A stretch of 64,000 bases of DNA from Halovenus carboxidivorans (GCF_009831575.1 NZ_WUUT01000007.1:62001-126000), one strand, 5' to 3'. Numbered from the stretch's first letter, positions 3,279-41,427 are shown. Made by a program: numbers and translations. The notes: generated by a model not told the origin, from the sequence alone.

Positions 3279-3410
3279 ATGTCCCGCACTGCCCGTCGTC
3301 CTGCCCCGCTGCGGGTTCGTACTGCTAATCGAACAGCACTCGCGGTTCACCGGAGTACAGTTCGGAGCCACAGCGCGGCCGACCGAGCACCAACCGGTGA
3401 CGGAGTATGA
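3279..3410 (+). CDS. Leaderless 43-codon mini-ORF coupled to wecB
   Basis: An ATG at the predicted 5' end of the transcript opens a 43-codon frame whose TGA (3408-3410) overlaps the wecB ATG (3407-3409) as ATGA. The peptide is Arg-rich and matches nothing I recognise. It probably brings ribosomes to wecB by termination and reinitiation, since wecB has no ATG at the 5' end and no obvious ribosome-binding site. It is one of nine such mini-ORFs in the window. Confidence 0.55.
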   Translation: MSRTARRPAPLRVRTANRTALAVHRSTVRSHSAADRAPTGDGV

Positions 3411-4507
3411 GCAACGGCATCGCTCTCGTTCTCGGGACCAGACCCGAGATCATCAAACTCGCGCCCGTGATCCAGGCGTGTGAGCGCCGATCCGTTCCGC
3501 ACACCCTGATCCACACCGGCCAGCACTACTCGGAGACGCTCGATTCGGTGTTTTTCGACCAACTCGGGCTCCCGGATCCCGACTACAACCTCGGCGTCGG
3601 CTCCGCAGATCACGGCAAGCAGACCGGCGAGATGCTGATCGGCGTCGAGCGGATCCTCCAGGAGTGTGATCCGGAGACCGTGCTCGTCCAGGGGGACACG
3701 AACAGCGTCCTCGCGGGCGCGCTCGCGGCCAGCAAACTGGACGTACGTCTGGGCCACGTCGAGGCCGGACTCCGAAGCGGCGACCGCGAGATGCCCGAGG
3801 AGACCAACCGAACGCTCGCGGATCACGCCGCGGACCGCTGTTTCGCACCGACAGAGCAGAGCCGAGACAATCTGCTCGCAGAAGGAATCCCCGAGGAACG
3901 GATCGAGGTTACCGGCAACACCGTCGTCGACGCTCTCGAACGACACAAGGAGTTAGCCAGAGAGCGGACGACCGCGCTCGCGGATCTCGGTCTCGACGAG
4001 GACGACTACGCGGTGATGACGCTGCACCGCGCCGAGAACGTCGACGATCCGGAGCGGTTCCGGGCGCTCTTGTTCGGGGCGAGCAGGGCGGGAGACAGTC
4101 ACGGGCTGCCGGTCGTGTACCCGATTCATCCCCGCGCCAGAGAGCGCATCGAGGAGTTCGACATCACTGTCCCGGAGCCGATTCGCCTGGTCGAGCCCCG
4201 TGAGTATCTCGAATTTATTCGCCTCGAAGACGCGGCGTCGATAATCCTGACCGACTCCGGCGGCGTTCAGGAGGAAGCCTGCATCCTCGGCACGCCCTGC
4301 GTGACGCTCCGGGACAACACCGAACGTCCGGAGACTATTTCGGCCGGGGCGAACGTGCTCGCGGGGCCGGACCCGGCGACGATCATCCACCGCGTCGAGG
4401 AGATGATCGACACCGACGGCGACTGGGAGAACCCGTTCGGGGACGGGACCGCGGGCGAACAGATCCTACAGGCGGTCACCCGTGCTCCCGAGGAGGTGCC
4501 CCAATGA
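3407..4507 (+). CDS. wecB: UDP-N-acetylglucosamine 2-epimerase (non-hydrolysing)
   Basis: A 366-residue cytoplasmic enzyme interconverting UDP-GlcNAc and UDP-ManNAc. Family hallmarks are the N-terminus LVLGTRPEIIKLAPVI, TGQHYSETL near residue 38, QGDTNSVLAGALAA near 95, HVEAGLRSGDREMPEE near 117, and the UDP-binding block LTDSGGVQEEACILGTPCVT near 282. Length is normal. The stop overlaps the start of wecC by four bases (ATGA), so the two are co-translated and together make UDP-ManNAcA for the glycan locus. Translation probably depends on the upstream 43-codon mini-ORF. Confidence 0.95.
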   Translation: MSNGIALVLGTRPEIIKLAPVIQACERRSVPHTLIHTGQHYSETLDSVFFDQLGLPDPDYNLGVGSADHGKQTGEMLIGVERILQECDPETVLVQGDTNSVLAGALAASKLDVRLGHVEAGLRSGDREMPEETNRTLADHAADRCFAPTEQSRDNLLAEGIPEERIEVTGNTVVDALERHKELARERTTALADLGLDEDDYAVMTLHRAENVDDPERFRALLFGASRAGDSHGLPVVYPIHPRARERIEEFDITVPEPIRLVEPREYLEFIRLEDAASIILTDSGGVQEEACILGTPCVTLRDNTERPETISAGANVLAGPDPATIIHRVEEMIDTDGDWENPFGDGTAGEQILQAVTRAPEEVPQ

Positions 4508-5790
4508 GTTCGGTCTGTATCCACGGCCTGGGGTACATCGGGCTCCCGACCGCGGCGATGCTCGCCAACTACGGGCACGATGTCTACGGGTACGACGCCG
4601 ACGAGACGGTCAGAGGAGACCTCCAGAACGGAGACGTGCACCTCGACGAACCCGGGCTACGGGCGTTCGTCACTCAGGCGCTCGAATCGGCACAACTGGA
4701 GATCACCGACGAAATCGTACAGGCGAAATACCACATCATCTGCGTGCCGACGCCGTTCGACCAAACCGAGCGGACGGCGGATCTCTCCTACCTCCGGGAC
4801 GCGGCCCACGGGCTCGCGCCGCTGCTCCGGGCCGGGGATACCGTCATCCTCGAATCGACAGTCCCTCCGGGAACGACGGTTGAACAGCTCCAGCCCATCC
4901 TGGAGTCGACGGGCCTCACCGCCGGGACCGACTTCGCGCTCGTCCACTGCCCGGAGACGGTGCTACCGGGCAACATCATCTCCGAACTGCGGGAGAACGA
5001 CCGGACGCTCGGCGGCGTCAACGGCGTTTCTACGGAGTCGGCGGTGCGTCTGTACGACTCCTTCGTCAGCGGCGAGATTCGGACGACGGACGACCCGACC
5101 ACCGCGGAGTTCGTCAAACTCATCCAGAACACCTACCGGGACGTGAACATCGCGCTGGCGAACGAGATTGCCCGTCTCGCGGACGATTACGGGATCGACT
5201 CGCGTGAGGCGATCGACCTGGCCAACGCCCATCCGCGCGTCGATATCCTCCAGCCCGGTCCCGGCGTCGGCGGCCACTGCTTGCCGATCGACCCGTGGTT
5301 CCTCGGCACCGGCTCCGACCAGATCGAACTCATCTCGACCGCTCGCGAGGTCAACGACGGAATGACGGAGTTCGTGATCGAGTTGCTCGAACGGGAACTG
5401 AACAGTCTCGACGGCACGAAAATCGCGATCCTCGGCGTTGCCTACAAAGGTAACGTCTCGGATGCCCGTAACAGCCCGGGGCTCGAACTCGCGAGAACGC
5501 TGGCGGATCGAGAGACGGCGGAACTCGCGACTGACGGCGGCCCGACCGGAGACATCGAGGTCGAAATTCACGATCCACACGTCACGGATCCGACGCTCGA
5601 CCTCGCGGACCTCGATTCGTCGACCGCCGGGGCAGATGCACTGGTGGTGACGACGGATCACGACGAGTACGCCGACCTCGATCCGGAGCCAATCGCCGAG
5701 CGAATGCACGAAGCGCTCCTAATCGATACGAAGGCACACCTCGACGCACCGCGATGGCGGGAGGCGGGGTTCGCAGTCCGCCAGATCTGA
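4504..5790 (+). CDS. wecC: UDP-N-acetyl-D-mannosamine dehydrogenase
   Basis: A 428-residue NAD-dependent nucleotide-sugar dehydrogenase that oxidises C6 of UDP-ManNAc in two steps. It has an N-terminal Rossmann motif HGLGYIGLPTAAMLANYG, ESTVPPGTT near residue 120, the catalytic-cysteine motif GVGGHCLPIDPW near residue 256, and a C-terminal UDP-binding domain with VAYKGNVSDARNSPG near 313. Pairing with WecB supports ManNAc rather than glucose as substrate. Unlike the AglM paralogue at 38289-40997, there is no intein at the catalytic cysteine. Confidence 0.92.
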   Translation: MSSVCIHGLGYIGLPTAAMLANYGHDVYGYDADETVRGDLQNGDVHLDEPGLRAFVTQALESAQLEITDEIVQAKYHIICVPTPFDQTERTADLSYLRDAAHGLAPLLRAGDTVILESTVPPGTTVEQLQPILESTGLTAGTDFALVHCPETVLPGNIISELRENDRTLGGVNGVSTESAVRLYDSFVSGEIRTTDDPTTAEFVKLIQNTYRDVNIALANEIARLADDYGIDSREAIDLANAHPRVDILQPGPGVGGHCLPIDPWFLGTGSDQIELISTAREVNDGMTEFVIELLERELNSLDGTKIAILGVAYKGNVSDARNSPGLELARTLADRETAELATDGGPTGDIEVEIHDPHVTDPTLDLADLDSSTAGADALVVTTDHDEYADLDPEPIAERMHEALLIDTKAHLDAPRWREAGFAVRQI

Positions 5791-5852
5791 AACGGCCGAC
5801 CGGACCGATCCCGGGTCGCCGTTAGCCGCCCCTGTACGCGGCTTAGCAACTG

Positions 5853-5862
5853 CTTAACTATG
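5853..5862 (+). promoter_or_regulatory. TATA-like box for the 5890 mini-ORF
   Basis: CTTAACTATG is centred about 33 nt before the ATG at 5890 (36 before the ATG at 5893). It is the only AT-rich box close to the mini-ORF in this intergenic stretch. Confidence 0.4.
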
Positions 5863-5889
5863 CCCACGCTCCTGAAATTGCCCCCCAGC

Positions 5890-6024
5890 ATGATGAGTAC
5901 GAGCCGTCGGAAAGCGGCGCCCGGACGACCGAGCCAGCGTTCGCCAGTTGACAGTTGCTACCAGGAGAGTTTCGGGGAGAGCACTCTCCGCGCACTGACT
6001 GCGGTTGATCGGGACAGCGAGTAG
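5890..6024 (+). CDS. 44-codon mini-ORF upstream of the phosphatase-GT2 fusion
   Basis: The frame opens with a double ATG at 5890 and 5893 and ends with TAG at 6022-6024, four bases before the ATG of the next gene at 6029. No ribosome-binding site lies in that gap, so the arrangement suggests termination and nearby reinitiation. The peptide has no recognisable relatives. It fits the pattern of the other mini-ORFs, though the stop and start do not overlap here. Confidence 0.45.
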   Translation: MMSTSRRKAAPGRPSQRSPVDSCYQESFGESTLRALTAVDRDSE

Positions 6025-6028
6025 ACGG

Positions 6029-7879
6029 ATGATCGGTGGACACAACAGCGACCGGATCAGACCGCTGGGGCTGGACCGGTTTCCGAAGTACGTCGACGGC
6101 GCGGTCCACATCGCCATGTCGCAGTACTTCGAGTTCGCGACCGACGACGGCGTGGATCCGATGAGTCGGGAGTGGGACCAACTTCTCCTCCTCGACGGCT
6201 GTCGGTACGACATGTTTCGCCAGTACAACACCCTCGACGGAGCGTTGCAGGCGACCACGTCGACGGCGACCGCGACCCCGGAGTTTCTGTCCGAGATATT
6301 CGACGGGAAACGGTACCAGGACACCGTCTACGTGACCGCGAATCCGATTCACCGGGTCGAAGAGTGGGCCGATGTCGACCTGGATCCGGTGTTTCGCGAG
6401 GTGATCGATGTCTGGGAGGACGAGTGGGACAGCGACCTCGGAACCGTTCCGCCGGAGCCGATGGTAACGGCGACCCGCGAGGCCAGGGAGGCGTACCCGG
6501 ACTGTCGGATTATCGCCCATTTCGTCCAGCCGCACTACCCGTTTATCGGCCCGTTCGGGCGGTCAATCGAACACGGACAGATGGGTGGCAAGGCCCGGGC
6601 CACGGACGCCGAGGAGGGCGCCGACGAGACGCCGATCTGGAAGGATCTCCGCGACGGCGAGCAGTCCCCCGGAGCGGCCTGGCGAGCGTACACCGAGAAC
6701 CTCTGGTACGTGCTGCCGTACGTCCGCGACCTCGTTGCAGACCTCCCCGGTAGGACAGTCGTTACGTCCGATCACGGGAACAACGTCGGAGAGATCTGCT
6801 GGCCGTTTCCGGTCAGAATGTACGGCCATCCGGAGGGAATCAGGACCCCCGAACTCGTGACGGTACCGTGGCTCACAATCGAGACCGAACAGTCGGAACC
6901 ACCCTCCAGACAGACGACGGCGAAGGGGGCAAGCGCCGAGACGAGTCCCGACGGCTCCGACGAGGATGACGGTCCGCTCGTCTCGGTCGTCATTCCGACG
7001 CACTTCCGCAACGAGGAGCTCTCCCGGGCGATTGCAAGCGTCAAATCCCAGACGTACAGCCCCGTCGAACTGCTCGTCGTCGACGATTCGGGAATCGAGC
7101 GCGCCAGACCGGTCGTCGAGGGAGAGGACATCCGGTACATCGCACACGAGAAGACCCGCGGCGCTAATCAGGCCCGGACGACGGGCATCGAGGCCGCGGA
7201 GGGGGAGTACGTCCAGTTGCTCGACGACGACGATTGCCTGCATCCGAAGAAACTCGCTCGACAGGTCGAACTGCTCGAATCCGATCCGGACGTCGGGGTC
7301 GCATTCTGCGGCGAAGCGAGCAGCAGCGGGCTACGAGTTCCCTCCCCCTCGGCGACCGGGAGACTCCTCGAGGAGACCCTCCAGTTCGGACCTAAAGCCT
7401 GTACCACGTCGACGATGCTGATCTCGGCGTCGACGCTCGACGGCGTTCTCCCGCTGGCCGACCGGGACGGGGCGGACGATATCGGGCTACGAATCGAGTT
7501 GGCGCGCCGGACCGCGTTCGATCACGTCAGCGACGCGTTAGTGTACCGCGGCGGCGGGGAAGACAGACGGTCCGAACGACCGGCGGTCGGCTACGAACTG
7601 TTGAAGATCGTCAACGAGTACAGCCCGCTGTACGACGAACGCGACCCGAGTATTCGTCGAGCGGCGCTGAAAAAGGCGTACACGACCATCGGACAGAACT
7701 CGCTCAGACACGGCGGGTGGTCGCTGACCGCACCGGTCGCGTTTCTCCGGGCGCTCGAGTACGAAGACGACCGCTCGTTCGGTGATCTCGCCCGACCCGC
7801 CGTCGCGATGCTGGGCGATACCGGATACGACGTCGCGTCCACGCTGTACACACGACTCGTGGATCGACTTCGGGAGTGA
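6029..7879 (+). CDS. Fusion: alkaline-phosphatase-fold domain plus GT2 glycosyltransferase
   Basis: A 616-residue two-domain protein. Residues about 35-285 resemble the alkaline phosphatase/sulfatase-fold proteins elsewhere in the locus: metal-site LLLLDGCRYD, a Ser/Thr-rich presumed nucleophile segment TSTATATPEFL, HFVQPHYPF, and TSDHGNNVGE near residue 255. After an acidic linker (about 290-320), residues about 322-500 form a GT2 domain (LVSVVIPTHFRNEELSRAI, QLLDDDDCLHPKKLA). The single protein may combine phosphoryl-group transfer or hydrolysis with sugar transfer on one glycan; that is inference. The ATG at 6029 was chosen over an upstream in-frame TTG. No sulfatase C-x-P-x-R motif is present. 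Confidence 0.8.
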   Translation: MIGGHNSDRIRPLGLDRFPKYVDGAVHIAMSQYFEFATDDGVDPMSREWDQLLLLDGCRYDMFRQYNTLDGALQATTSTATATPEFLSEIFDGKRYQDTVYVTANPIHRVEEWADVDLDPVFREVIDVWEDEWDSDLGTVPPEPMVTATREAREAYPDCRIIAHFVQPHYPFIGPFGRSIEHGQMGGKARATDAEEGADETPIWKDLRDGEQSPGAAWRAYTENLWYVLPYVRDLVADLPGRTVVTSDHGNNVGEICWPFPVRMYGHPEGIRTPELVTVPWLTIETEQSEPPSRQTTAKGASAETSPDGSDEDDGPLVSVVIPTHFRNEELSRAIASVKSQTYSPVELLVVDDSGIERARPVVEGEDIRYIAHEKTRGANQARTTGIEAAEGEYVQLLDDDDCLHPKKLARQVELLESDPDVGVAFCGEASSSGLRVPSPSATGRLLEETLQFGPKACTTSTMLISASTLDGVLPLADRDGADDIGLRIELARRTAFDHVSDALVYRGGGEDRRSERPAVGYELLKIVNEYSPLYDERDPSIRRAALKKAYTTIGQNSLRHGGWSLTAPVAFLRALEYEDDRSFGDLARPAVAMLGDTGYDVASTLYTRLVDRLRE

Positions 7880-11850: not shown

Positions 11851-11860
11851 AATAACAATT
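11851..11860 (+). promoter_or_regulatory. TATA box for the 11885 mini-ORF
   Basis: AATAACAATT is centred 29 nt before the ATG at 11885. The main start at 11991 would have a leader of more than 100 nt from this promoter. Confidence 0.6.
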
Positions 11861-11884: not shown

Positions 11885-11989
11885 ATGTCAGCTATCGCCG
11901 CGACGAGACCGAGAGCCGTCACGACTGGACAGCGACGCGAGGGGGAGAACCCACAATCGTGGAGCGGTCGGGGTCGGTCGAACGACTAA
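11885..11989 (+). CDS. Leaderless 34-codon mini-ORF before the GT-C-like gene
   Basis: The ATG is at the predicted transcript 5' end. The frame ends with TAA at 11987-11989, one base before the ATG at 11991, in a frame different from the main gene. The peptide is Arg/Ser-rich without recognisable relatives. It belongs to the recurrent stop-at-start arrangement of this window. Confidence 0.5.
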   Translation: MSAIAATRPRAVTTGQRREGENPQSWSGRGRSND

Positions 11990-11990
11990 C

Positions 11991-13772
11991 ATGAACGCGT
12001 ACAGAGGCCACCTCCTCAGCGCAGTCGGTCTCGGCTGTCTCCTCGCGGCCGTCGGTATCGTCCTCCAGACTCCCGACCCGACCCAGTACGAGATCTCGAT
12101 ATACGAGGGGTATCCGGGCCACTTCTGGCTGTTGCTGGTCGGCGCGTTCGTGCTCGGCGGCCTCACGATCGTCGCTAGCGCGGCCGTCCCCGAGGACAGG
12201 ACCTGGGTGTTCGGCACTGCGCTCCTGCTCCTGACGAACGCGCTGTTCCTGCTGCTCCCGCTTGTCCGGGGGTACATGCTCTACGGACACGCCGATCCGA
12301 TGAGCCACATCGGGTACGTTCGGGACATCGTGAGTTCCGGCAGTGTCGGGGACAACATCTACCCCCCGATGCATCTCCTCGTGATGGCCGTCAGCGAGGC
12401 GACCGGTGCCGATCTGTTCACAATCGGGCTGGCCGTCCCGCTCGTCTTCGCGGCGGTGTATTTCGTCGGGATGTACTACGTTCTGGTGTACCTGTTCGAC
12501 TCGCGCCGACGGGTACTGTTCGGCCTCCCGTTCGTGCTGTTGCCGATTCTCGGAGACGCACACGTCAGCCTCCGGCCGTACGATCTGAGTCTGCTCTTTC
12601 TGCCGGTGGTCTTCTATCTGTTCTTCAAGAGCCAGCGCAGTCCGACACCGTCGACGCGGATCGCCTTCGTCGTCGCGCTGGTGACGCTTCTGCTGTATCA
12701 CCCGCTGACTGCGCTCTTTCTGGTGGGGATTTTCTCGCTGTATTTCGTCGCGCGGATCGTGCCGGGGATCGACGACCGGTACTCGACGCCGACGAACTTC
12801 ATCTCGCTGTCGGCCGTGATCTTCCTGGCGTGGTACTCGAACTTCACGGGGATCATCACCCGGTTCAACTCCGCGTATTACACGCTATTCGGTCCGGAAA
12901 CGGGGGAGGCTCCTGTCGACACCTACGCGGCGACGGCAGAGGAAGCGTCGCCGCCGCTGATCGATATTCTGCGCGAAGCGATCGCCCTCTACGGCGTCGC
13001 TTTCTCGGTGTTCACGCTCGGCTTTCTCTTCCTCGCTGTCGGATCGATTCTCTTCGTTCGGCGACGCTATTCGCCGACGAGTTACACCGTGATGCTCGGG
13101 GCGACGCTGGCCGTCTTCAGTTTCGGCGGACTCTGCTTTCTGCTCGTCGACCTCATCGTCCCGCCGAGTCGACCGTTTCAGATCGCGAAGATCGGCGCAG
13201 TCGTCCTCGCGGGACAGCTGTTCTACCTCCTCGCTGACCGGGTCTCCTGGCCCACCGTCGGCTCGCGAACCGGGGTCAGACTGTTCTTTCTGGTAGCCAT
13301 CGTCGTCCTGGCCGGGCTGTCCGTCGTAACGTTCTATCCGTCGCCGTACGGGACAGCGGACAACCCACAGGTCACGGAGATGGAGCTATCCGGGTCCGAA
13401 TGGATCACCACGCACGGAAACACCGACAACCAACTCGGCGGGATCGAACTCAGCCACCGTCGATTTCACCACGCCCAGAACGGCGTCGACGCGCCGCTGC
13501 CGTTTTCGAGAGCTGTGATTCCGGCGCGGTTCAACTACACCGAACGGCCGTCGCTCGGGGCGAGCTACAGCGAGGACGCCTACCTGACGGTTACCCGTCG
13601 CGGGCGGATCCTGTATCCCGAACTGTTCCCGGGGTATCGGGACGACTGGCGGTACACGCCGAGTGATTTCGCTCGCCTCGAACGGGATCGGACCGTCGAC
13701 CGGATCTACGACAACGGGGATTACAACCAGTACCGGATTCGCGGAACGGCGACGGCTGAAAACGGAAACTAA
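11991..13772 (+). CDS. Polytopic membrane protein, probable GT-C-type glycosyltransferase
   Basis: A 593-residue protein with about a dozen hydrophobic segments between residues 8 and 460, then a soluble C-terminal domain of roughly 130 residues. The first long loop carries YGHADPMSHIGYVRDI, an acidic loop like those of GT-C enzymes using lipid-phosphate sugars outside the membrane. NIYPPMHLLVMAV follows. The overall plan (multi-span core, exported C-terminal domain) also fits a polymerase. I do not recognise an exact family. The ATG at 11991 was chosen because hydrophobic coding begins there and the mini-ORF stop abuts it. Confidence 0.65.
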   Translation: MNAYRGHLLSAVGLGCLLAAVGIVLQTPDPTQYEISIYEGYPGHFWLLLVGAFVLGGLTIVASAAVPEDRTWVFGTALLLLTNALFLLLPLVRGYMLYGHADPMSHIGYVRDIVSSGSVGDNIYPPMHLLVMAVSEATGADLFTIGLAVPLVFAAVYFVGMYYVLVYLFDSRRRVLFGLPFVLLPILGDAHVSLRPYDLSLLFLPVVFYLFFKSQRSPTPSTRIAFVVALVTLLLYHPLTALFLVGIFSLYFVARIVPGIDDRYSTPTNFISLSAVIFLAWYSNFTGIITRFNSAYYTLFGPETGEAPVDTYAATAEEASPPLIDILREAIALYGVAFSVFTLGFLFLAVGSILFVRRRYSPTSYTVMLGATLAVFSFGGLCFLLVDLIVPPSRPFQIAKIGAVVLAGQLFYLLADRVSWPTVGSRTGVRLFFLVAIVVLAGLSVVTFYPSPYGTADNPQVTEMELSGSEWITTHGNTDNQLGGIELSHRRFHHAQNGVDAPLPFSRAVIPARFNYTERPSLGASYSEDAYLTVTRRGRILYPELFPGYRDDWRYTPSDFARLERDRTVDRIYDNGDYNQYRIRGTATAENGN

Positions 13773-13826: not shown

Positions 13827-13901
13827 ATGTCTGAGGAACCGTCTCGCAGCACGCGTGGTTCGACACCGGCCAGGATGCACTGGGCCGGACGGAACAGATG
13901 A
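13827..13901 (+). CDS. Leaderless 24-codon mini-ORF coupled to the FG-GAP gene
   Basis: Opens at the predicted 5' end of the transcript and ends with TGA at 13899-13901, overlapping the ATG at 13898 as ATGA. The main frame upstream of 13898 also reads plausibly for about 20 codons without a start codon, so a longer, frameshifted N-terminus is an alternative explanation. Confidence 0.45.
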   Translation: MSEEPSRSTRGSTPARMHWAGRNR

Positions 13902-15064
13902 CGCTGCTCGGCACGGCGATGGAGTTCGCCCACGAGGAGATCGACGCCGACCCGCCCTGTGGGAAACTCGGGTTCTGCCTGACGACGGATCTCACGGGGA
14001 ACGGCCGGGAGGACATCATCGTCGGCGGACACGGCGAGGGCTTTCCGGGCCGGCGGTTCGTCGACGCCGCGAAACAGCGAGGGATCCCGACGTTCCGCCG
14101 GTTACGGTCGGCTGTCGGTCTCACCGAAACCCACGTCTTCTGGTACGAGAACCCGGGCTTCGAGCGCCACGATGTCTCGGTCACGCCGTATCTGGACGTC
14201 GGCGCCGCGCTGGGCGACGTGACCGGAGACGGCCGCATGAACCTCGTGGCCGGGCAGGGCATCCGGCACACCGACGTCTACTGGTTCGAAATTCCGGAGG
14301 ATCCGCGCGAGGAGTGGACGCGACACCTCATCACCGACGAGTTCGAGAAGTACCACGACCTCGCGGTCGCAGATATCGACGACGACGGCGACCCGGAGGT
14401 CGTCGGCCTCTCACAGAACGCCGAGACCGTCTTCTACTACGACATTCCGCCGGATCCCAGGCTGTCGCCGTGGCCGGATCACAACCGGCACGTCATCGAC
14501 GACAATCGGGACATCGAGGGACTGGCAGTGCTCGATATCGACGGCGACGGAACGACGGAACTGGTGGCGGGAACGAGTCTCTACCGGCCGGAGTCGGGAG
14601 CGGACTGGGACGCCGAACCGATCGTCTCCGGGTGGGATCGGACCCGCGTCGCCGTGGCCGATCTCGACGGCGACGGCGATCTGGAGGTCGTCTTTGCAGA
14701 GGGAGACTCGCCCGAACTCGGGAGCCACCCCGGCCGCGTCGCCTGGTTCGATCCGCCCGACTGGGAGGCGACGGTCCTCAAAGACGACCTGTTCTGCCCG
14801 CACTCGCTGCAGATCGCCGACTTCTCGGGGAACGGCTACCCGGACATCTACGTCGGTGAGATGAGCCTCGAGGAGAACAGAACCCCACAGCAGTTGCTGT
14901 TTCTCAACCACGGCGACGGGGAGTTCGAGCAGCGGGCGATTGCGACCGGCGTCGGGACACACGAGGCCAAAGCCGTCGATCTGACCGGCAACGGCCGCCC
15001 CGACATCGTCGGCAAGTCGTACCACCCCCAACACCACGTCGATATCTGGTACAATGAGGTCTGA
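13898..15064 (+). CDS. FG-GAP/VCBS repeat beta-propeller protein
   Basis: A 388-residue protein built of repeated Asp-rich blades such as TDLTGNGREDIIVGG, GDVTGDGRMNLVAGQG, ADIDDDGDPEVVG, LDIDGDGTTELVAG and ADLDGDGDLEVVFAEG. These are calcium-binding FG-GAP loops of a seven-bladed propeller. No signal peptide or membrane segment is visible, so it may be cytoplasmic or its N-terminus misplaced. In a glycan cluster it may bind polymer. The stop is three bases before the next gene, so it is in an operon with the GT4 and heparinase-like genes. Confidence 0.8.
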   Translation: MTLLGTAMEFAHEEIDADPPCGKLGFCLTTDLTGNGREDIIVGGHGEGFPGRRFVDAAKQRGIPTFRRLRSAVGLTETHVFWYENPGFERHDVSVTPYLDVGAALGDVTGDGRMNLVAGQGIRHTDVYWFEIPEDPREEWTRHLITDEFEKYHDLAVADIDDDGDPEVVGLSQNAETVFYYDIPPDPRLSPWPDHNRHVIDDNRDIEGLAVLDIDGDGTTELVAGTSLYRPESGADWDAEPIVSGWDRTRVAVADLDGDGDLEVVFAEGDSPELGSHPGRVAWFDPPDWEATVLKDDLFCPHSLQIADFSGNGYPDIYVGEMSLEENRTPQQLLFLNHGDGEFEQRAIATGVGTHEAKAVDLTGNGRPDIVGKSYHPQHHVDIWYNEV

Positions 15065-19224: not shown

Positions 19225-19324
19225 GGTCGATGCTCCGCGCGGCAGCCATTTGGTTACCCAATGGATACCGCGAGGCGGGGGACCGCTCCCGAATTTGCTA
19301 CACACGACGGTAGTATATGAGAAG

Positions 19325-19334
19325 CATAACCAAA
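19325..19334 (+). promoter_or_regulatory. TATA box upstream of the beta-helix gene
   Basis: CATAACCAAA predicts a transcript start near 19360, about 15 nt before the mini-ORF ATG at 19375 and about 100 nt before the main ATG at 19458. Confidence 0.5.
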
Positions 19335-19374
19335 TGTCAGCCCCATCTCTGTCGGAGATATCCAGACACGCGGC

Positions 19375-19461
19375 ATGACCATTTGGACGGAACGCCGGGA
19401 CCCCGCCCGGTCGCCTCGGTGCGCCGAACGAGCCGACGAGGGAGTGACGCCGCATTCATGA
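19375..19461 (+). CDS. 28-codon mini-ORF coupled to the Tat-exported beta-helix gene
   Basis: The frame ends with TGA at 19459-19461, overlapping the next ATG (19458-19460) as ATGA. Its own ATG is overlapped in the same way by the stop of a 14-codon frame that begins at 19334, but that ATG lies inside the TATA box and is probably not transcribed. The peptide is Arg-rich with no relatives. A short leader of about 15 nt, not a strictly leaderless start, is predicted. Confidence 0.4.
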   Translation: MTIWTERRDPARSPRCAERADEGVTPHS

Positions 19462-20972
19462 CCGAAGACCAGCCGGACAGAAACCGGATTAGCAGACGCC
19501 ACGCGCTCGCCGTACTCGGGACCGGAGCAGCGGCACTCATCAGCGGTTCCGAAGCGCCGTTCGTCGGTGAGGAGGGCGTTCGTCCCGCACGGACCGGACA
19601 ACTGACCACCGACGGCAGCGGTGGTGAGCAGCCGAGTCGGAACGGGACCGAGTGTGAGGGCGAAGCGTGCGGCGACAGTACGGATCATCCCGGCGAGAGT
19701 ATCACGGCCTACGGCGCGCTCTCTGATCCCGACGACCAGCGTATCTCGACGGCCGAGCGGAACCTCAGGGCGCTGCTGGAGGCCGCGCGGGCCGCGGGCA
19801 GAAACGGAACCGTCTACATTCCCTCCGGGACGTACTACATCGGCCACGACGGGAGCGGTCCCGACCCGTTCGTCCGATTCGGCGGGCGGGAGCCGCCGGG
19901 TATCTCCATCGTCGGAGCCGGCCCGGAGGTCGCGACGCTCGCGATTTCGGAGCACACGCCCCCGGACGAACAGCCGAACCAGAGCGGTCTGATGTGGGAA
20001 GAGGGGTACGATCACGGGACGATCACCGTCGAGAACGTCAGACTACACGGGAACTACGAGGCACTCCCGAACCTCTCGAAGGCCGGCGGTGGGTCGTGGG
20101 GCCTGCAGACGGGCGGACGGGGACGGATCAGGCTGCACAACGCGTACATCTCCGGCTGGCATCTGGCGGGCCTTCGCGGACGACACATGGTCGAGCGCGT
20201 CGAGCGGTGCACCTTCGAGGACAACGGGATCGGCGTCCACAACGACGCCAACGGGGACGCGAACTCCCATCACATCTCAGTGCGGCCGAGACGGGGGACG
20301 ACGTGTCGAATCCGGAACTGCCAGTTTCTCGACTGTGCGGGAAACGTGGTGAACATCCGGTACAACGACGGTCGGCTGCGGATGGTCAACTGTCACGCCA
20401 CCGGCACCGGGTCCGGGTTGTGTAAACTCTCCGGAGGCAGCCACGTCGTTTTCAGACACGTCTATCACGAGGGACACACAGACTCTCTCGAACAGAAAGT
20501 AGACGAACGACCCGACGGACCGAACTTCTACGGCCGGAACTGCATCAACAGCCTGGGGGAACGCGGGTCGCGATCCGTGACCCTCCGAACGGAGCATCTC
20601 GAATCGTGGGATACGACGGAGTACGCCCTCCAGTCCCGTGGGGAGATCGGCAACGGTCCCCCTGCCGTCAAGTGGGTCGGAGACATGGTCGCGATTCACA
20701 ACGCGAATATGACGAACGGGGAGGTCGCGATCCGAAACAGGGAGGGCGGGTCTTTCGATGGAGTCGAGTTTCGGCGGCTCTCGGTCCACGGGTCGAGCGG
20801 AGACGTGTTTTCGACGACGAGATCCAGCGGGAGAATCGAGACGTTACACCGGGACAACGCCGGAGGCCTCGGCAACCCCGGAGACATTACGATCGAGACC
20901 GACCGCGAGGGCGCCGACCCGTTCGTCCCGGAGGTCCCGGACGCCGCCGATGTCGGGATCAACAGCTCTTGA
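19458..20972 (+). CDS. Tat-exported right-handed beta-helix protein
   Basis: A 504-residue secreted protein. The N-terminus has a twin-arginine signal (RISRRHALAVLGTGAAALIS, residues about 9-29), then a low-complexity linker rich in Gly, Ser and acidic residues to about 75. The remainder is a parallel beta-helix of the pectate-lyase-like superfamily: an opening motif near ESITAYGALSDPDDQRIST, RNGTVYIPSGTYYIG, then repeating short-strand turns (VENVRLHGN, IRNCQFLDCAGNVVNIRYND). It probably binds or cleaves an acidic glycan outside the cell; catalytic residues cannot be assigned. Confidence 0.8.
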   Translation: MTEDQPDRNRISRRHALAVLGTGAAALISGSEAPFVGEEGVRPARTGQLTTDGSGGEQPSRNGTECEGEACGDSTDHPGESITAYGALSDPDDQRISTAERNLRALLEAARAAGRNGTVYIPSGTYYIGHDGSGPDPFVRFGGREPPGISIVGAGPEVATLAISEHTPPDEQPNQSGLMWEEGYDHGTITVENVRLHGNYEALPNLSKAGGGSWGLQTGGRGRIRLHNAYISGWHLAGLRGRHMVERVERCTFEDNGIGVHNDANGDANSHHISVRPRRGTTCRIRNCQFLDCAGNVVNIRYNDGRLRMVNCHATGTGSGLCKLSGGSHVVFRHVYHEGHTDSLEQKVDERPDGPNFYGRNCINSLGERGSRSVTLRTEHLESWDTTEYALQSRGEIGNGPPAVKWVGDMVAIHNANMTNGEVAIRNREGGSFDGVEFRRLSVHGSSGDVFSTTRSSGRIETLHRDNAGGLGNPGDITIETDREGADPFVPEVPDAADVGINSS

Positions 20973-25525: not shown

Positions 25526-26437
25526 TTAGCTGAGATAGCCGAGTTCCCGAAGCCGGTCGGTGGCGACGTCCTCGCTGGCCCGAGTTGTCTCCTCGGTCGG
25601 CGTCTCGGCCGTGATCTCTCGGCGCGGGCCGTTCTCGGAGACGTGCCAGGGGACGCGGACGAGTTCCTCGGCGTAGAGCCCGACGGGGTGGCCGTACTCG
25701 CGGATCGGAACCGGGAAGAGCCGTTCACCGAACATCTGGCCGTGATCCGCCGTCACGACGGTTTTGCCCCGTAGCTCGGAGAGCAGTCGTTCGACCGACG
25801 GCAGCGCCGCCTCCAGCGTCTCCTCGTAGGCGCGTTCGAGCACCGCGTCGGGAATGTCGAGGTCACCGGTCGCGACGTCCTCCCACTGGAAGTCGAGGCG
25901 GTCGAGATCGAACCACTCCGCCCCGGTCTCGCCGAGAAACGGGTAGTGTGGCTGGAGGAAATGCGAGAGGATGCGTTTGTTCGGATACTGTTCGGCGGCC
26001 GCAAGCGTCTCCTCGGCCATCGTCTCCGGGAGCACCGTCCGGTACTGGTCGTCCCAGCCTCGGTCGTCCCAGACGTTGACCGTCGCGTGAAACTCGACAT
26101 CGATGTCGTCCCGGTGGCGGTGTAACATCGGGCTCGCGGTGACGTAGACGGTATCGTGAAGTCGTTTTCCGTCGAAATTGCCGCGGAGGAACTCCTCTGT
26201 AGCGGAGCCTTTCGAGCGGACGGCAGTCGTCTCTCCGGGCAGGTCGGCGACGCGCTCGAAGAGGTCGTATCGGCAGGCGTCGAGGATCACGAGCGTGTCC
26301 CAGTCGGCGGCGAAGATATCCAGTCCGTCCTCGTTGTGCGTCCGGGAGTACAGCCGCTGGTAGTACAGCCGGTTCAGCTCCTGGAGGATAAATCGCGGAT
26401 TCGCCAGCCCCTTTCGGATCCCGTGCAGCGAGTACAT
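25526..26437 (-). CDS. Alkaline-phosphatase/sulfatase-fold protein
   Basis: A 303-residue relative of the 21048 protein and of the N-terminus of the 6029 fusion. It has DWDTLVILDACRYDLFERV (metal Asp), the Ser/Thr segment KGSATEEFLRGNFDGKRLHD at the nucleophile position, LSHFLQPHYPF and VTADHGQMFGERL (metal ligands), ending RLRELGYLS. No cysteine or C-x-P-x-R occurs at the active site. The ATG at 26437 is 32 nt from AATAACAAAT on the reverse strand (about 26464-26473): leaderless. It is convergent with the beta-helix gene and divergent from the GT4 at 26598. Confidence 0.75.
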   Translation of the reverse strand: MYSLHGIRKGLANPRFILQELNRLYYQRLYSRTHNEDGLDIFAADWDTLVILDACRYDLFERVADLPGETTAVRSKGSATEEFLRGNFDGKRLHDTVYVTASPMLHRHRDDIDVEFHATVNVWDDRGWDDQYRTVLPETMAEETLAAAEQYPNKRILSHFLQPHYPFLGETGAEWFDLDRLDFQWEDVATGDLDIPDAVLERAYEETLEAALPSVERLLSELRGKTVVTADHGQMFGERLFPVPIREYGHPVGLYAEELVRVPWHVSENGPRREITAETPTEETTRASEDVATDRLRELGYLS

Positions 26438-26562
26438 TGTCCGGTCGTTGGCCGAATGTCTGATTTGTTATTCTGCACCTACCGACGGAGCTTCTGCGAC
26501 GGCAAGAGCCGTCTTCGTAGTCGGAAACACCGGCAGTCGCCGGTACTGCCGGGAAAGAGATC

Positions 26563-31524: not shown

Positions 31525-33330
31525 TCACCGGTTCGTCTGGACCGAGTACAGTTCCGCGTACTTGCCGTCGTTGCGGACGAGTTCGTCGTGGCCGCCCCGC
31601 TCGGTGATCGTCCCGTCTTTCATGGTGTAGATCCGGTCGGCGTTTTCGACCGTCGAGAGCCTGTGAGCGATGGTGATGATGCCGTACTCGCGGTCCATCG
31701 CCTCGATTGCCTGCTGGACCTCCTGTTCGAGGTGGGTGTCCAGGTCGCTGGTCGCCTCGTCGAGGACCAGCAGATCCGCGTCCTGCAACAGCGCCCGTGC
31801 GAGGGCGACCCGCTGTTTCTGCCCGCCGGAGAGCCTGACACCCTCGTCCCCGAGTTGCGAATCGTAGCCGTTCGGGAGGTCGTCGAAGAACTCGTCGACG
31901 CGGGCGATTGCGCAGGCGCGGTCGATTTCGTGCTGCGACGCGTGCCGGTTTCCGAGCGTGAGGTTGTACCGCAGCGTATCGTTGAAGATGTACGGACTCT
32001 GTCTGACGATTGCCAGTCGGTCGCGCCACTCGTCCGGTTTCATCTCGTTGATCGGCACGCCGTCGGCGTAGATCTGCCCGGAGTCCGGCTCGTAGTACCG
32101 CGCGAGCAGCGAGACGATCGTCGATTTACCGGCACCGGACTGGCCGACGAACGCGACGAACTCCCCCTTGTCGACGCTGAAACTCACGTCTCGGAGCACC
32201 GGTTCGTCCTCGTTGTACGCGAAGGAGACGTCGTCGAAGGCGACGGTCTCGACGGGGTTCGGGACCGACCGGGTGCCGCCGGTCGGCTCCTGGCGGTCGT
32301 CGAGTTCGTCGAGAAACTGCTGGGTCCGGACCAGGTGGGGCAACTCGTTTTCGACGGAGTACGCGAGTTCGTTCAGCCCGCTCACCTTCGGCCCCAGTTG
32401 GAACATCGCGAACAGGAACAGACCGAGTTCGCCGAAGGTGAGGCTGGCAAAGCGCAACGCGACATAGATCAGCACGAACACGAACACCGCGACGGCGAGG
32501 TTGTAGAACTGGTTGATCGCGGTCTGGTTGCGCTTGAGTTTGATCTTGTTCGTCGTGAACTGATCGACGGCGTTGTCGAACTGCTCCGACATCTCCTCGC
32601 TGAGGTTGAACACCCGGATATCGCGGATACCGATCATCCCGGCCTGTGCGGCCTCGTGTCGGCGTTCGTTCGCGTCCGCGACGAGATCACCGAGGTCGTA
32701 ACCCGACTCGAACACTCCCTGTAACAGGACCGTGATCGTCCCGAGGACGATCACCGAGATGACGGTCAAAAACGGGGAGATCCACAGCGTGATCAGCAGA
32801 TAGACGCTGGTCAGGAAGGTGAAGTTGAGGATCTTCACAACCTTGTTGATCACGCGGGCGGCGGCGGATGACTCGGTGATGATCGTGTTCAGGATCTCGT
32901 CGGAGCCTTCCTTGTCGAAGTACTCCATCTCGGCTTTGAGCGCGCTGTTGAACGCCCGTTTCTGGAGGTACCGCTGGTAGTTGAACCGGAGCATCTTCCG
33001 CAGCCAGTTGTAGACGAAACTGCTGGTGTATCGCAGCGTCATCACCAGCGTGACACCGGCGACGGCGTAGCCGAGCGTGAACGGGATGCCGAGGGCCTGA
33101 TAAATCGTCGCGAAGACGAGCGACAGCCCTTCCGCCTCGGCAACGGGGTCCTCGGCCTGGATGATCTCGACAATCGGGATGATGAACGTGAGCCCGATGC
33201 CTTCGAGAACCGCCACGAACAGCCCTAACACGACGAGGGCAGCGGTGAACAGGGGTTTGTACTTGGCGGCCGCAACGAGCGCGTCCAGTTGCTCTCTGCG
33301 AGAGACGTTTTGGAGGTCTGGGTCAGTCAT
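31525..33330 (-). CDS. ABC transporter, fused permease-ATPase (PglK/MsbA type)
   Basis: A 601-residue half-transporter expected to work as a homodimer. Residues about 25-325 hold six hydrophobic segments. The ATPase domain has Walker A FVGQSGAGKSTIVSL near residue 400, Q-loop VRQSPYIFN, signature RLSGGQKQRVALARALL near 505, Walker B LLVLDEATSDLD and the switch TIAHRLS. PglK-like proteins of this layout flip lipid-linked oligosaccharides; in a glycan locus that is the natural guess, with polymer export the alternative. The start is overlapped by the stop of the 33415 mini-ORF. Confidence 0.87.
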   Translation of the reverse strand: MTDPDLQNVSRREQLDALVAAAKYKPLFTAALVVLGLFVAVLEGIGLTFIIPIVEIIQAEDPVAEAEGLSLVFATIYQALGIPFTLGYAVAGVTLVMTLRYTSSFVYNWLRKMLRFNYQRYLQKRAFNSALKAEMEYFDKEGSDEILNTIITESSAAARVINKVVKILNFTFLTSVYLLITLWISPFLTVISVIVLGTITVLLQGVFESGYDLGDLVADANERRHEAAQAGMIGIRDIRVFNLSEEMSEQFDNAVDQFTTNKIKLKRNQTAINQFYNLAVAVFVFVLIYVALRFASLTFGELGLFLFAMFQLGPKVSGLNELAYSVENELPHLVRTQQFLDELDDRQEPTGGTRSVPNPVETVAFDDVSFAYNEDEPVLRDVSFSVDKGEFVAFVGQSGAGKSTIVSLLARYYEPDSGQIYADGVPINEMKPDEWRDRLAIVRQSPYIFNDTLRYNLTLGNRHASQHEIDRACAIARVDEFFDDLPNGYDSQLGDEGVRLSGGQKQRVALARALLQDADLLVLDEATSDLDTHLEQEVQQAIEAMDREYGIITIAHRLSTVENADRIYTMKDGTITERGGHDELVRNDGKYAELYSVQTNR

Positions 33331-33415
33331 GGTTGTCGTGAGTGTGGGTACGTCGCTGATGGTGATCGCGAGAACCGATTACTGGAGAACATCGATCAGG
33401 TCGCATCGCCGTCAT
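33323..33415 (-). CDS. Leaderless 30-codon mini-ORF overlapping the ABC transporter start
   Basis: The ATG at 33415 is 31 nt from a TATA box on the reverse strand (33450-33441). The frame ends with TGA at 33325-33323, just inside the ABC gene (ATG 33330-33328, arrangement ATGACTGA). The ABC gene itself has no ATG near the transcript 5' end. The peptide is rich in His, Arg and Asp with no relatives. Confidence 0.5.
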   Translation of the reverse strand: MTAMRPDRCSPVIGSRDHHQRRTHTHDNHD

Positions 33416-33440: not shown

Positions 33441-33450
33441 CTTGTTATAG
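33441..33450 (-). promoter_or_regulatory. TATA box for the ABC-transporter mini-ORF
   Basis: CTATAACAAG on the reverse strand, centred 31 nt before the mini-ORF ATG at 33415 and about 116 nt before the ABC gene start. Confidence 0.55.
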
Positions 33451-33537: not shown

Positions 33538-34962
33538 TCAGGCAAGATAGCCGAGATCGCGGAGTTGATCGCGGGCCTGTTCGCTGAACTCGACCGATTC
33601 CGCGCGTTCCTCCGCTCCCCAGTCGATTCCTTCTGCGTCGATGTATCCGGAGAGTTCGTCCGCGACCGCGGGATGGCCGTCGAGTACGTCCGTCCGTTCG
33701 TCGGGGAGGTCGTGTAACACCGCGCGCTCGTCGTTTTCGAGATACTTCCAGTCGGGGGTTCGGACGGCGGTAAACGGCGCCTCGAAGAACCGGGAGGTGT
33801 CGAACCTCTCGTCGTGTTTCGTGTACTCGTCGAGGTGAGCCACCCCCCGCTGGCTGATCGCGTACGGTCGCTGTGCCGAGCGGATGTCCCGTCCCTCGAA
33901 CTCCTCGGTCGGCACGCCGGTCACGGCGCCGACAGTCCGAGTGAGATCGATATGCTGTGTGACCGTCTCGGAGTCATCGACGACATCGTCGATGCCGACG
34001 ACCAGACCCGGGACGTGTGTCAGGCCGTCGTGCAGGACGAGGTTGTGACCGATCAGCCCCAGTTCGCCGAAGAGGTCGCCGTGGTCACCGGTGACGACGA
34101 TCACGAGCGGGCGGCGCGACAGCGATGCGGCCGTCGAGATCAGTTCCCCCGCCGTGCTGTCCGCGTATCTGATCTCCGCGTCGTACAGCGCCGTGATCGC
34201 CTCCCACTCGCTGTCCGAGAGGTCGAGTCCGCGCGCCATTCGGCGTCGGATGCCGTCGGTTCCGGTGTAGACCGACTCCGACAGTTCGGCGGCCTCGGCG
34301 GCGCTCATCCCGATCTCGTCGGTGAACACGTCCCGGAACTTCGTGACGGGGTTGTATGGGTGATGCGGCGAGGGGACGTGTGCGTAGGCGAAAAACGGCG
34401 CGGTACTGCCGTCGTGTCCCCACCGGTCGAAGCGCCGCTCCAAGAGGTAGTTCTTGCCTCTGGTGATCTCCTCTTTCAGCGTCGCGATATCGGTGGTCGG
34501 TCGACCCCGGACACAGCGGAGCGCGGAGACGATGCGGTCTCTCGTGGCCGCGTCGTAGCCGAAGAAGTCCTCCTGTCTGATCGAGAGGTCGTCGACGTGA
34601 TCGAAGCCGCGGTCGAGACCCGTCTCCGGCCCGATGTAGTACGTCGGGGTGAACAGCCCGGTCCGGTACCCCTGCTCGGAGAGTCGCTCCGGCAGCGTCT
34701 CCACGGACGGGAGCAGTTTCCGCTCGCACTTCCCGTCGGCCCCGAGTTGGTGAGTGGACATGTGGGTCCCGGTCAGCATCGACGCCGTCGAGGCCGGCGT
34801 CCACATCGACCCGGAGACGACCGGATCGAGCACCGTCGCGTCGGGGCGACGGCTGATGCGGTCGAGATTCGGCGTCGTGTCGCGGTCGTAGCCGTGCAGC
34901 GAGGTGTGGTCTGCGCGCACCGATTCCAGCGAGATCCAGAGGACGTTCGGGCGCGCTGTCAT
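33538..34962 (-). CDS. Sulfatase-fold protein with threonine at the nucleophile position
   Basis: A 474-residue paralogue of the 30068-31456 protein. It opens NVLWISLESVRADHTSLHGY; at the sulfatase signature it reads MWTPASTASMLTGTHMSTH, so Thr stands where Cys would be and Thr where Arg would be. VIVVTGDHGDLFGELGLIGH near residue 275 gives metal ligands, and the C-terminus ends LRDLGYLA. A phosphoryl-type transferase or hydrolase acting on surface glycan is the best guess. Its ATG is overlapped (ATGA) by the stop of the 35030 mini-ORF. Confidence 0.8.
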   Translation of the reverse strand: MTARPNVLWISLESVRADHTSLHGYDRDTTPNLDRISRRPDATVLDPVVSGSMWTPASTASMLTGTHMSTHQLGADGKCERKLLPSVETLPERLSEQGYRTGLFTPTYYIGPETGLDRGFDHVDDLSIRQEDFFGYDAATRDRIVSALRCVRGRPTTDIATLKEEITRGKNYLLERRFDRWGHDGSTAPFFAYAHVPSPHHPYNPVTKFRDVFTDEIGMSAAEAAELSESVYTGTDGIRRRMARGLDLSDSEWEAITALYDAEIRYADSTAGELISTAASLSRRPLVIVVTGDHGDLFGELGLIGHNLVLHDGLTHVPGLVVGIDDVVDDSETVTQHIDLTRTVGAVTGVPTEEFEGRDIRSAQRPYAISQRGVAHLDEYTKHDERFDTSRFFEAPFTAVRTPDWKYLENDERAVLHDLPDERTDVLDGHPAVADELSGYIDAEGIDWGAEERAESVEFSEQARDQLRDLGYLA

Positions 34963-35030
34963 CGTTCAGTTCGTCGATCCACGGTGTCCCTCGGTGCGGT
35001 CTGTATCCCACGGTCCGGTGTCTGTCTCAT
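34959..35030 (-). CDS. Leaderless 23-codon mini-ORF coupled to the sulfatase-fold gene
   Basis: The ATG at 35030 is 34 nt from the reverse-strand TATA box at 35059-35069. The frame ends with TGA at 34961-34959, overlapping the ATG at 34962-34960 as ATGA. The 23-residue peptide is Arg/Thr-rich and has no relatives. Confidence 0.5.
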   Translation of the reverse strand: MRQTPDRGIQTAPRDTVDRRTER

Positions 35031-35255
35031 ATCTACACCGGAGCAGGAGAGGCCGCCTGAAAAGTATAGACAGCGTGCAGTCGAGGTAGGATCCGACTAC
35101 CGCGATCGGACGACTCCCGGCGGGAACCAGCGGCCGCGGAACGAACTCTCCGACGGTTCGACGCTCTGGAACGGCCTTGCGGAACCCCGAGTTGCCCCGG
35201 CCGGCCGCGCCGTAGCTACGCTATAACAAATCGGCGGGTTGGCACACGACAAGAC
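35031..35255. promoter_or_regulatory. Divergent promoter region with two TATA boxes
   Basis: Lies between two mini-ORFs reading outward. The reverse-strand box CTATACTTTTC (35069-35059) serves the sulfatase-fold gene, and the forward box CTATAACAAA (about 35221-35230) is centred 30 nt before ATG 35256. The roughly 150 nt between them carry no convincing gene and could hold shared regulator sites. Confidence 0.5.
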
Positions 35256-35390
35256 ATGCCCGTTGTGTTCCCCGCAGAAGGATACGCCGCGCGGCCGTGG
35301 CGGATCACGAAACACCCTCTGAAGACAGCGTTGTCGGACTGGCTGATCAGCGCCCGCAGTCACCCGCCGACGGCCGGGGGCCGGGTATGA
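35256..35390 (+). CDS. Leaderless 44-codon mini-ORF coupled to the epimerase gene
   Basis: Opens at the predicted 5' end of the transcript and runs 44 codons to TGA at 35388-35390, which overlaps the ATG at 35387 as ATGA. The peptide is basic and unlike the acidic proteome, with no relatives. The epimerase frame itself is open upstream of 35387 but lacks a well-placed start. Confidence 0.55.
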   Translation: MPVVFPAEGYAARPWRITKHPLKTALSDWLISARSHPPTAGGRV

Positions 35391-36301
35391 AGGCGCTCGT
35401 CACCGGCGGAGCCGGGTTCATCGGCTCACATCTCGTCGAGCGACTCACCAGGATGGGTCACGACGTGACCGCCGTCGACGACCTCTCGAACGGGCGAGCG
35501 GAGTGGGTTCCCGACGACTGCGCGTTCGTCGAGGGCGATCTAACCGACAGTGCGACCGTCGATTCCGTCGTCGATGGCTCCTACGACAGCGTCTTTCACC
35601 TGGCGTCGCGGAAGGCGGTCGACGACGACGACCCGCGCGGACAGTTCCGAGAGAATACGGCGATGACCGGCGCGCTCGTGGACGCCGCCGTGGAGGCGGG
35701 CATCCCCGAGTTCCTGTTCACCTCGACTTCGACCGTCTACGGCGAGGCACCGCGGCCGACGCCGGAGGACTACGCGCCGCTGGAGCCGATCAGTGCATAC
35801 GGCGCGAGCAAACTCGCCTGCGAGGGGATTCTCTCGGCGGCGGCACACACGAGCGATCTGACGGTCTATAACTATCGGTTTGCGAATATCGTCGGACCGC
35901 GCCTGCGCGGAGCCGTCATTCCGGATTTCATCGAGAAACTTCGGGCCGATCCCTCGGAACTGACAATTCTGGGAGACGGCCGCCAGGAGAAATCGTATAT
36001 GCACCTCCAGGAGTGTCTCGACGCGATGGTACACGTCCACGCCAACGCGTCGGGACCGGTCGCGACCTACAACCTGGGGACCAGGACGACGACCTCCGTG
36101 ACGCGAATCGCCGAACTTGTGTCGGAGGAACTCGGCGTGACGCCGACGTATCGGTACACGGGCGGGGAGCGCGGCTGGACGGGGGACGTGCCGAGAATGC
36201 GGCTCTCGATCGAAAAGCTCGCCGGTCTGGGCTGGACGCCCGAACTGTCGAGCGAAGACGCCGTCAGGCGGGCAACGGCAGAACTCGCCCGGGAGATCTG
36301 A
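35387..36301 (+). CDS. NAD-dependent nucleotide-sugar epimerase/dehydratase (SDR)
   Basis: A 304-residue extended SDR enzyme related to UDP-glucose 4-epimerase. The N-terminal NAD loop is ALVTGGAGFIGSHLVERL; LFTSTSTVYGEAPRP near residue 112 supplies the catalytic Thr/Ser; AYGASKLACEG near 139 supplies the Tyr-x-x-x-Lys pair; NFRFANIVGPR-type sequence and DGRQEKSYMHLQECLDAMV follow. It probably makes UDP-galactose- or UDP-galacturonate-type donors. In-frame codons upstream of 35387 would only add a non-homologous extension; homology starts at MKALVTGG. Confidence 0.88.
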   Translation: MKALVTGGAGFIGSHLVERLTRMGHDVTAVDDLSNGRAEWVPDDCAFVEGDLTDSATVDSVVDGSYDSVFHLASRKAVDDDDPRGQFRENTAMTGALVDAAVEAGIPEFLFTSTSTVYGEAPRPTPEDYAPLEPISAYGASKLACEGILSAAAHTSDLTVYNYRFANIVGPRLRGAVIPDFIEKLRADPSELTILGDGRQEKSYMHLQECLDAMVHVHANASGPVATYNLGTRTTTSVTRIAELVSEELGVTPTYRYTGGERGWTGDVPRMRLSIEKLAGLGWTPELSSEDAVRRATAELAREI

Positions 36302-36391
36302 GTGGAAGCGAGATAGGCGTGTGGAATAGTAGCATTCTACTACCGACCGTACACTGTTACTAACAATCACGGCGGCCGCCGGAGCGGACGT

Positions 36392-37351: not shown

Positions 37352-37381
37352 GTACAGGGCCGCGGACGGGCCGTCGGAGGT

Positions 37382-40997: not shown

Positions 40998-41074
40998 TAT
41001 GATTCAGTACTCCCAGTATCGCCTTCAAACGTCGGGTTCGTCACACCCGGGCCCGCGACGGGCAGACACCCGAA

Positions 41075-41380
41075 TCAATCAGAGACCGCAGTGACGGTCA
41101 ACTGACCTCGACCGTCGAGCGTCACGTCGAGGCCCTGGTACCGGAACGAAACAGTGATCGTCTCGTCAGCCTGGTTGGTCTCCAGTAGCGCGGTCAACGC
41201 GTCGACATCGATCTCCTCGCCGAGCGGCGGGAGATCAGTCGGTCGCTTTCCTTCGACAGCCGCAATCGCTTCCACGATTGCCAACACCGGCTGTTCGTAT
41301 CGTTTCCAGTCTGTCCGGACGGTCTCCTGACCGGGTCCGTGCAGTGCTGTCTGTTCTGCCTCGTTCTCGTGTTCTCTCAT
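41075..41380 (-). CDS. HalOD1-type output-domain protein
   Basis: A 101-residue protein. After about 25 variable residues it shows YEQPVLAIVEAIAAVEGKRP, LPPLGEEIDVDALTALL, VSFRYQGLDVTLDGRGQLTV, the pattern of the haloarchaeal HalOD1 output domain found alone or after receiver domains. Function is unproven, possibly signalling output. Its ATG at 41380 is overlapped (ATGA) by the stop of a 16-codon mini-ORF. It lies outside the glycan genes, so the mini-ORF arrangement is not limited to them. Confidence 0.75.
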   Translation of the reverse strand: MREHENEAEQTALHGPGQETVRTDWKRYEQPVLAIVEAIAAVEGKRPTDLPPLGEEIDVDALTALLETNQADETITVSFRYQGLDVTLDGRGQLTVTAVSD

Positions 41381-41427
41381 TGGTGGCTCCAGAGGTCGTC
41401 CGCCGGTGCACCCGACATCGACTCCAT
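41377..41427 (-). CDS. Leaderless 16-codon mini-ORF coupled to the HalOD1 gene
   Basis: The ATG at 41427 is 31 nt from the reverse-strand TATA box at 41462-41453. The frame (MESMSGAPADDLWSHQ) stops with TGA at 41379-41377, overlapping the HalOD1 ATG as ATGA. It is the shortest mini-ORF in the window and one of the clearest cases. Confidence 0.5.
   Translation of the reverse strand: MESMSGAPADDLWSHQ

Follow-up and report, generated by a model that had tools for sequence, protein, structure and literature searches.

What is the role of a short open reading frame that ends on, or a few bases from, the start codon of the gene behind it, when this layout recurs along a single stretch of a haloarchaeal genome? 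The question is raised by the window, the whole 64,000-nt stretch of DNA that was analysed (G000:C7:62001-126000), which lies on a 139-kb contig of the 3.25-Mb genome of Halovenus carboxidivorans. A preliminary description had placed such mini-ORFs ahead of nine genes, and re-reading of the window sequence found the stop/start geometry exact at all nine sites. A gene caller based on codon usage, trained on 464 kb of the same genome without promoter input and also applied to the other genomes, independently selected all nine main ATGs. The mini-ORFs are 16-44 codons long (n=9). Six end in an ATGA overlap with the main start (at 3407, 13898, 19458, 34962 on the minus strand, 35387, and 41380 on the minus strand); the other joins are ATGACTGA at 33330 (minus strand), a stop one base before 11991 and a stop four bases before 6029. 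RTGA overlap with the next start is thus found at six of the nine window sites, as it is in most relatives, and the remaining stops lie within 9 nt. The mini-ORFs and the genes behind them are as follows.

3279..3410, plus strand: mini-ORF, 43 codons, ATGA; its TGA overlaps the main ATG; orthologous WecB leaders exist
3407..4507, plus strand: WecB-type UDP-GlcNAc 2-epimerase (PF02350)
5890..6024, plus strand: mini-ORF, 44 codons, ATGATG start; TAG 4 bases before 6029; box weak
6029..7879, plus strand: GT2 glycosyltransferase (PF00535)
11885..11989, plus strand: mini-ORF, 34 codons; TAA 1 base before the main ATG at 11991
11991..13772, plus strand: 593-aa protein without a Pfam match
13827..13901, plus strand: mini-ORF, 24 codons; ATGA at 13898; box weak
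13898..15064, plus strand: FG-GAP repeat protein
19375..19461, plus strand: mini-ORF, 28 codons; ATGA at 19458; leaderless distance without a box
19458..20972, plus strand: beta-helix protein, RR motif near the N-terminus
33323..33415, minus strand: mini-ORF, 30 codons; stop 5 bases inside the main ORF (ATGACTGA)
31525..33330, minus strand: ABC transporter (PF00005, PF00664)
34959..35030, minus strand: mini-ORF, 23 codons; ATGA at 34962; box spacing long
33538..34962, minus strand: sulfatase-family protein (PF00884)
35256..35390, plus strand: mini-ORF, 44 codons; ATGA at 35387
35387..36301, plus strand: NAD-dependent sugar epimerase (PF01370)
41377..41427, minus strand: mini-ORF, 16 codons; ATGA at 41380; promoter score 2.15 (genome-trained matrix)
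41075..41380, minus strand: HalOD1-domain protein (PF18545)

The gene at 19458 has an alternative in-frame ATG at 19317, and the extension 19317-19458 has a poor coding signal. A relative's FG-GAP protein (L113) is directly leaderless after TATAACAA.

At four of the nine sites (3407, 33330, 35387 and 11991) a WATAACAA box is clear 33-34 nt before the mini-ATG:

3246..3253, plus strand: TATAACAA box, 33 nt before the mini-ORF ATG
11851..11858, plus strand: AATAACAA box, 34 nt before the mini-ORF ATG
33442..33449, minus strand: TATAACAA box, 34 nt before the mini-ORF ATG
35222..35229, plus strand: TATAACAA box, 34 nt before the mini-ORF ATG

The TATA box originally reported ahead of the mini-ATGs is clear at these four sites but not at 6029, 13898, 19458 and 34962, which are assigned by geometry; 41380 adds to its geometry a good score on the genome-trained promoter matrix, which is moderate support. 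Individually, the mini-ORFs at these five positions are unproven candidates. Other genes with the same boxes start directly, as the preliminary description had it, namely a gene at C7:61603 (minus strand) and, within the window, the following comparator:

25526..26437, minus strand: 303-aa gene, direct leaderless start 35 nt after AATAACAA (box at 26472)

In directly started genes the box lies 33-36 nt from the ATG, and the mini-ATGs share this distance, clearly so at four to five of the nine window sites; because direct genes carry their ATG at the same 33-36 nt, we infer from sequence that the mini-ATG is the transcript start. Alignment of 47 validated sites extended the box to a bipartite element, TA-N7-TATAACAAW (counted from the box, position -8 is A in 85% and position -9 is T in 60%), which is alike in directly started and mini-ORF genes.

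The pattern TATAACAA-N(24-28)-ATG, in which the ATG follows 32-36 nt on, has six matches in the 3.25-Mb genome, and all six fall between C7:54229 and C7:97258. One is a direct leaderless gene and five are mini-ORFs ending near the main start, with stops at +1, +1, +1, +5 and +8 relative to it: 3407 (+1), 33330 (+5) and 35387 (+1) inside the window and, outside it, C7:59896 (+1), a DUF7344 gene, and C7:54164 (+8), which encodes a TFB transcription factor. This confinement to C7 suggests either a locus-specific promoter class or an acquired glycan island. Contig C7 makes up about 4% of the genome yet holds all six correctly spaced TATAACAA sites. The direct gene, at G000:C7:61603 (minus strand), encodes a sugar epimerase whose Rossmann motif is preceded by an N-terminal extension resembling a mini-ORF fused in frame. 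The TFB (TFIIB) gene (L077; G000:C7:53211-54164, minus strand), about 7.8 kb before the window, has a TATAACAA box and a 25-codon mini-ORF. Its product might be the factor that reads the TATAACAA promoter class. We also entertain, tentatively, a wider reading in which TA-N7-TATAACAAW would mark a glycan regulon, perhaps with this boxed, same-contig TFB as its dedicated factor, and mini-ORF relays would set or gate its genes at reinitiation. A literature search for TATAACA together with haloarchaea returned no relevant report.

Could the geometry instead reflect chance and selective noticing, given that upstream ATGs will sometimes end near starts and ATGA is common? As a control for the genome itself we sampled 400 kb elsewhere, and the remaining triplets of the same leaders supplied the expected counts. 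First-in-unit genes of the window have 42 upstream ATGs, and 9 of these end as ATGA at the gene start, against 2.8 expected; in the 400 kb elsewhere, 13 of 204 stop at starts against 12.8 expected, which is the chance level. Counted per gene, the figures are 10/49 in the window and 22/271 elsewhere (Fisher P=0.017, uncorrected for the fact that this window was chosen, and weak once that is considered). The genome-wide over-representation that had been anticipated is thus not seen outside the locus, whereas a test by promoter class, described below, is above chance. A generic promoter matrix trained on the genome was dropped as a genome-wide test, being too weak; it gave the chance level. Here, the general tendency of leaderless mini-ORFs to stop at starts is a local pattern and not a genome-wide property; enrichment is restricted to box-linked mini-ORFs, and this class is the strong signal. 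The rate outside C7, the lack of a clear box at several of the nine sites, and the fact that an A after the main ATG supplies TGA for free and so adds chance matches are all what chance would give, and chance may explain as many as five of the nine sites in the window. As an account of the pattern as a whole we consider it improbable, since boxed cases from independent genomes lie above even a null that varies only the frame, and relays and Shine-Dalgarno (SD) motifs (below) also speak against it.

That excess comes from a search of 59 related genomes for TATAACAA with an ATG at the right spacing, for which the control was the same box with the ATG 16 nt further on; the right spacing gave 93 matches and the control 49. 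Of 22 out-of-frame cases whose main gene is strongly coding, 15 have their stop no more than 9 nt from the main start (5.95 expected, P=2.5e-6); once the window's own genome is left aside, the relatives show such a stop in 11 of 17 (4.6 expected, P=1.5e-4). The null is conservative, since it varies only frame and position near the ATG and retains the open leader. Two apparent misses, TFB L077 and flippase L126, become stop-at-start after manual correction of the start. At the wrong spacing 3 of 8 scorable cases are stop-at-start, compared with 16 of 23 at the right spacing, numbers too small to separate the two; cases with a AATAACAA box give 6 of 9. Boxed genes in relatives include Wzx-type flippases, GlmS, GlmU-like proteins, DegT, epimerase, WecB and DUF1616, which, with the Pfam matches in the window, bears out the emphasis first placed on glycan genes. 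The same layout appears in flippases chosen by family rather than by promoter (L180, L181, L182, L183 and L192). In a set chosen by the bipartite box, with no ATG required, L309 and L316 (ATG at 39 nt) stop at +1, and at many boxes the start site lacks an ATG.

Several features indicate that it is not the peptide that is kept. Over 27 mini-ORFs, GC content is flat across codon positions 1-3 (0.646/0.643/0.637) and Arg makes up 15.1% in each of the three frames; between close orthologues, substitutions at codon positions 1-3 stand at 27:31:29. As substitutions spread evenly over codon positions and Arg is equal in all three frames, the peptide is unselected, and no coding constraint (codon bias or synonymous excess) was found in the 27 mini-ORFs or in the orthologues. 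The peptides do contain the Arg that earned them the name Arg-rich, but so do the other two frames. The earlier view that the architecture recurs and not the peptide fits the even substitutions, the flat GC and the diverging peptides; the suggested Arg-sensitive gate does not fit, as Arg is equal across frames and peptide sequences are not retained. A peptide-sensing attenuator, for instance an Arg- or growth-sensitive gate, draws on the Arg-rich look of the peptides, and the same frame-independent Arg content, flat GC and free peptide divergence make it most improbable. We give equally little credence to the idea that the upstream frames encode functional small proteins. Some leaderless short ORFs behind the box do resemble real ones, with a membrane peptide in L091 and a Cys-rich one in L097 and L134, but these do not stop at the neighbouring start, and the coupled mini-ORFs have neither codon bias nor conservation, grounds on which we discarded a peptide function for them.

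Stop-at-start conservation, another check proposed at the outset, came out in part. Among the nine genes the sulfatase, for example, has only distant relatives in the genus, so the test was shifted to WecB and flippases. In one orthologue group the lengths differ by 6 and 3 nt with the frame preserved. In a neutral simulation with the stop fixed, retention of both start and frame in all pairs had P=0.005, and retention of the frame alone P=0.07. The evidence that close orthologues conserve start and frame is thus modest, and convergence between unrelated leaders is a stronger argument than direct orthologue conservation.

SD 5-mers immediately precede the main start in 7 of 27 cases, compared with 2.6% of other leader positions (P=4.5e-6), and GGAG/GAGG in 11 of 27, compared with 11.9% (P=1.4e-4); a minority of mini-ORFs (7/27) therefore carry an SD 5-mer inside the upstream frame. 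Overlapping gene pairs in Haloferax are strictly coupled, a 10-nt gap still couples, and SD helps there but is dispensable, and it does not support de novo initiation within leaders (PMC6728339). According to a 2025 review, coupling reaches its limit at about 30-40 nt (PMC12548453). All nine stop/start distances in the window lie inside these published limits. The mini-ORF is probably a peptide-independent ribosome loader that acts by termination-reinitiation. The bipartite promoter TA-N7-TATAACAAW would start transcription at the AUG or a few bases off, the ribosome would begin at the mini-ATG in the normal leaderless way and read a short frame of arbitrary sequence, and termination on, or a few bases from, the main start codon would lead to reinitiation on the main gene, assisted at some genes by an SD motif within the mini-ORF. 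Such a loader would permit translation behind a 40-170-nt leader in haloarchaea, which do not initiate de novo at a leader SD, and two mini-ORFs may sometimes work in relay. Transcript start, mini-ORF translation and coupling are predictions of this scheme. Ribosome loading, as first proposed, is still the best reading in light of the stop-at-start excess at boxed sites, the SD enrichment and the independence from peptide sequence.

Coupled leaderless frames have precedents. In mycobacteria, leaderless small ORFs are coupled via RTGA to the next gene and their peptides are unconserved (Shell et al. 2015, PMC4633059). The mini-ORFs share with them RTGA onto the next start, an unconserved peptide set against a retained coupling, and a proposed role in ribosome delivery; those are bacterial and spread over the genome, whereas these are archaeal, are confined to a single promoter class of glycan loci and in some cases form relays. 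The mini-ORFs thus work like the mycobacterial RTGA class but are not the same genome-wide phenomenon, stops at starts being at chance level outside the contig. Cys-rich leaderless uORFs have also been proposed as amino-acid-sensing attenuators in mycobacteria (PMC4633059), and the mini-ORFs resemble them in being leaderless uORFs ahead of a gene, here without an enriched or conserved residue. Overlapping genes of Haloferax volcanii (Huber et al. 2019, PMC6728339) have the same ATGA or near overlap and an SD in the upstream frame in the same class of organism, but are full gene pairs, whereas the upstream partner in the present case is a disposable mini-ORF at a predicted transcript start. According to Babski et al. 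2016 (PMC4983044), long 5' UTRs of H. volcanii contain uORFs of 15-31 aa near mapped transcript starts, one of them before agl15, annotated as a probable low-salt glycan flippase; flippases are also among the mini-ORF-led genes here. The uORF peptides were reported there as low-pI and regarded as likely proteins, and the section consulted does not describe stop/start coupling. Delivery of ribosomes by short ORFs is already described in the 2025 review (PMC12548453). Given the mycobacterial small ORFs (PMC4633059) and the haloarchaeal leader uORFs (PMC4983044), calling this a distinct regulatory scheme was an overstatement. In the literature searched, which did not take in the 2020 Haloferax ribosome-profiling paper, neither the archaeal coupled form nor the relays nor the TATAACAA class was described. 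By analogy, the best reading would be an archaeal variant of the mycobacterial RTGA-coupled leaderless small ORFs. Archaea and mycobacteria both have many leaderless mRNAs, and the presence of the layout in the two groups suggests a solution reached more than once. Passing the ribosome on from a disposable 5' frame would be a simple answer to the translation of SD-incapable haloarchaeal leaders and would make glycan genes portable among promoters, and many annotated archaeal leaders and short ORFs would need re-reading.

The layout can also be compounded. WecB leaders in one genus fall into three diverged groups, and each runs from a first mini-ORF to a second and then to wecB, with a TTTGATAAGC box and an ATGATG about 30 nt on. 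By group, the first mini-ORF has 21, 17 or 25 codons and the second 40-43, 23 or 19; the two are joined by TAG with a short (9-nt) gap, by GTGA or by ATGA, and wecB itself is always reached via ATGA. The leader of 19458 has the same two-step layout (19334-19378, 19375-19461), without a clear box:

19334..19378, plus strand: 14-codon ORF with ATGA onto the next mini-ORF, a possible first relay step (sequence reading)

The mini-ORF is optional, as many boxes precede direct leaderless genes or leaders without an ATG. WecB starts directly in L138 and behind a mini-ORF in L080 and L112; DUF1616 differs likewise between L148 and L149, and the epimerase is direct with an N-terminal extension in L079 and mini-ORF-led in L082 and L110. 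This variation within families, together with the arbitrary peptides, is what one would expect of a tolerated accident, in which shuffling of glycan loci joins leaderless-ATG promoters to new genes, blocking frames are lost, and the mini-ORF brings no benefit of its own. We regard this as unlikely, because SD enrichment at main starts and repeated two-step relays resemble tuning more than tolerance, and it would still need the same reinitiation mechanism. For the ribosome loader, families that occur in both direct and mini-ORF-led form point to one of two readings: promoter shuffling with a neutral frame outcome that reinitiation keeps working, or quantitative tuning. One further gene family, with a VWPWEHLAFGYL start, is found in two genomes (L234, L252) with a mini-ORF that lies behind AATAACAA and ends 5-6 nt before a GTG.
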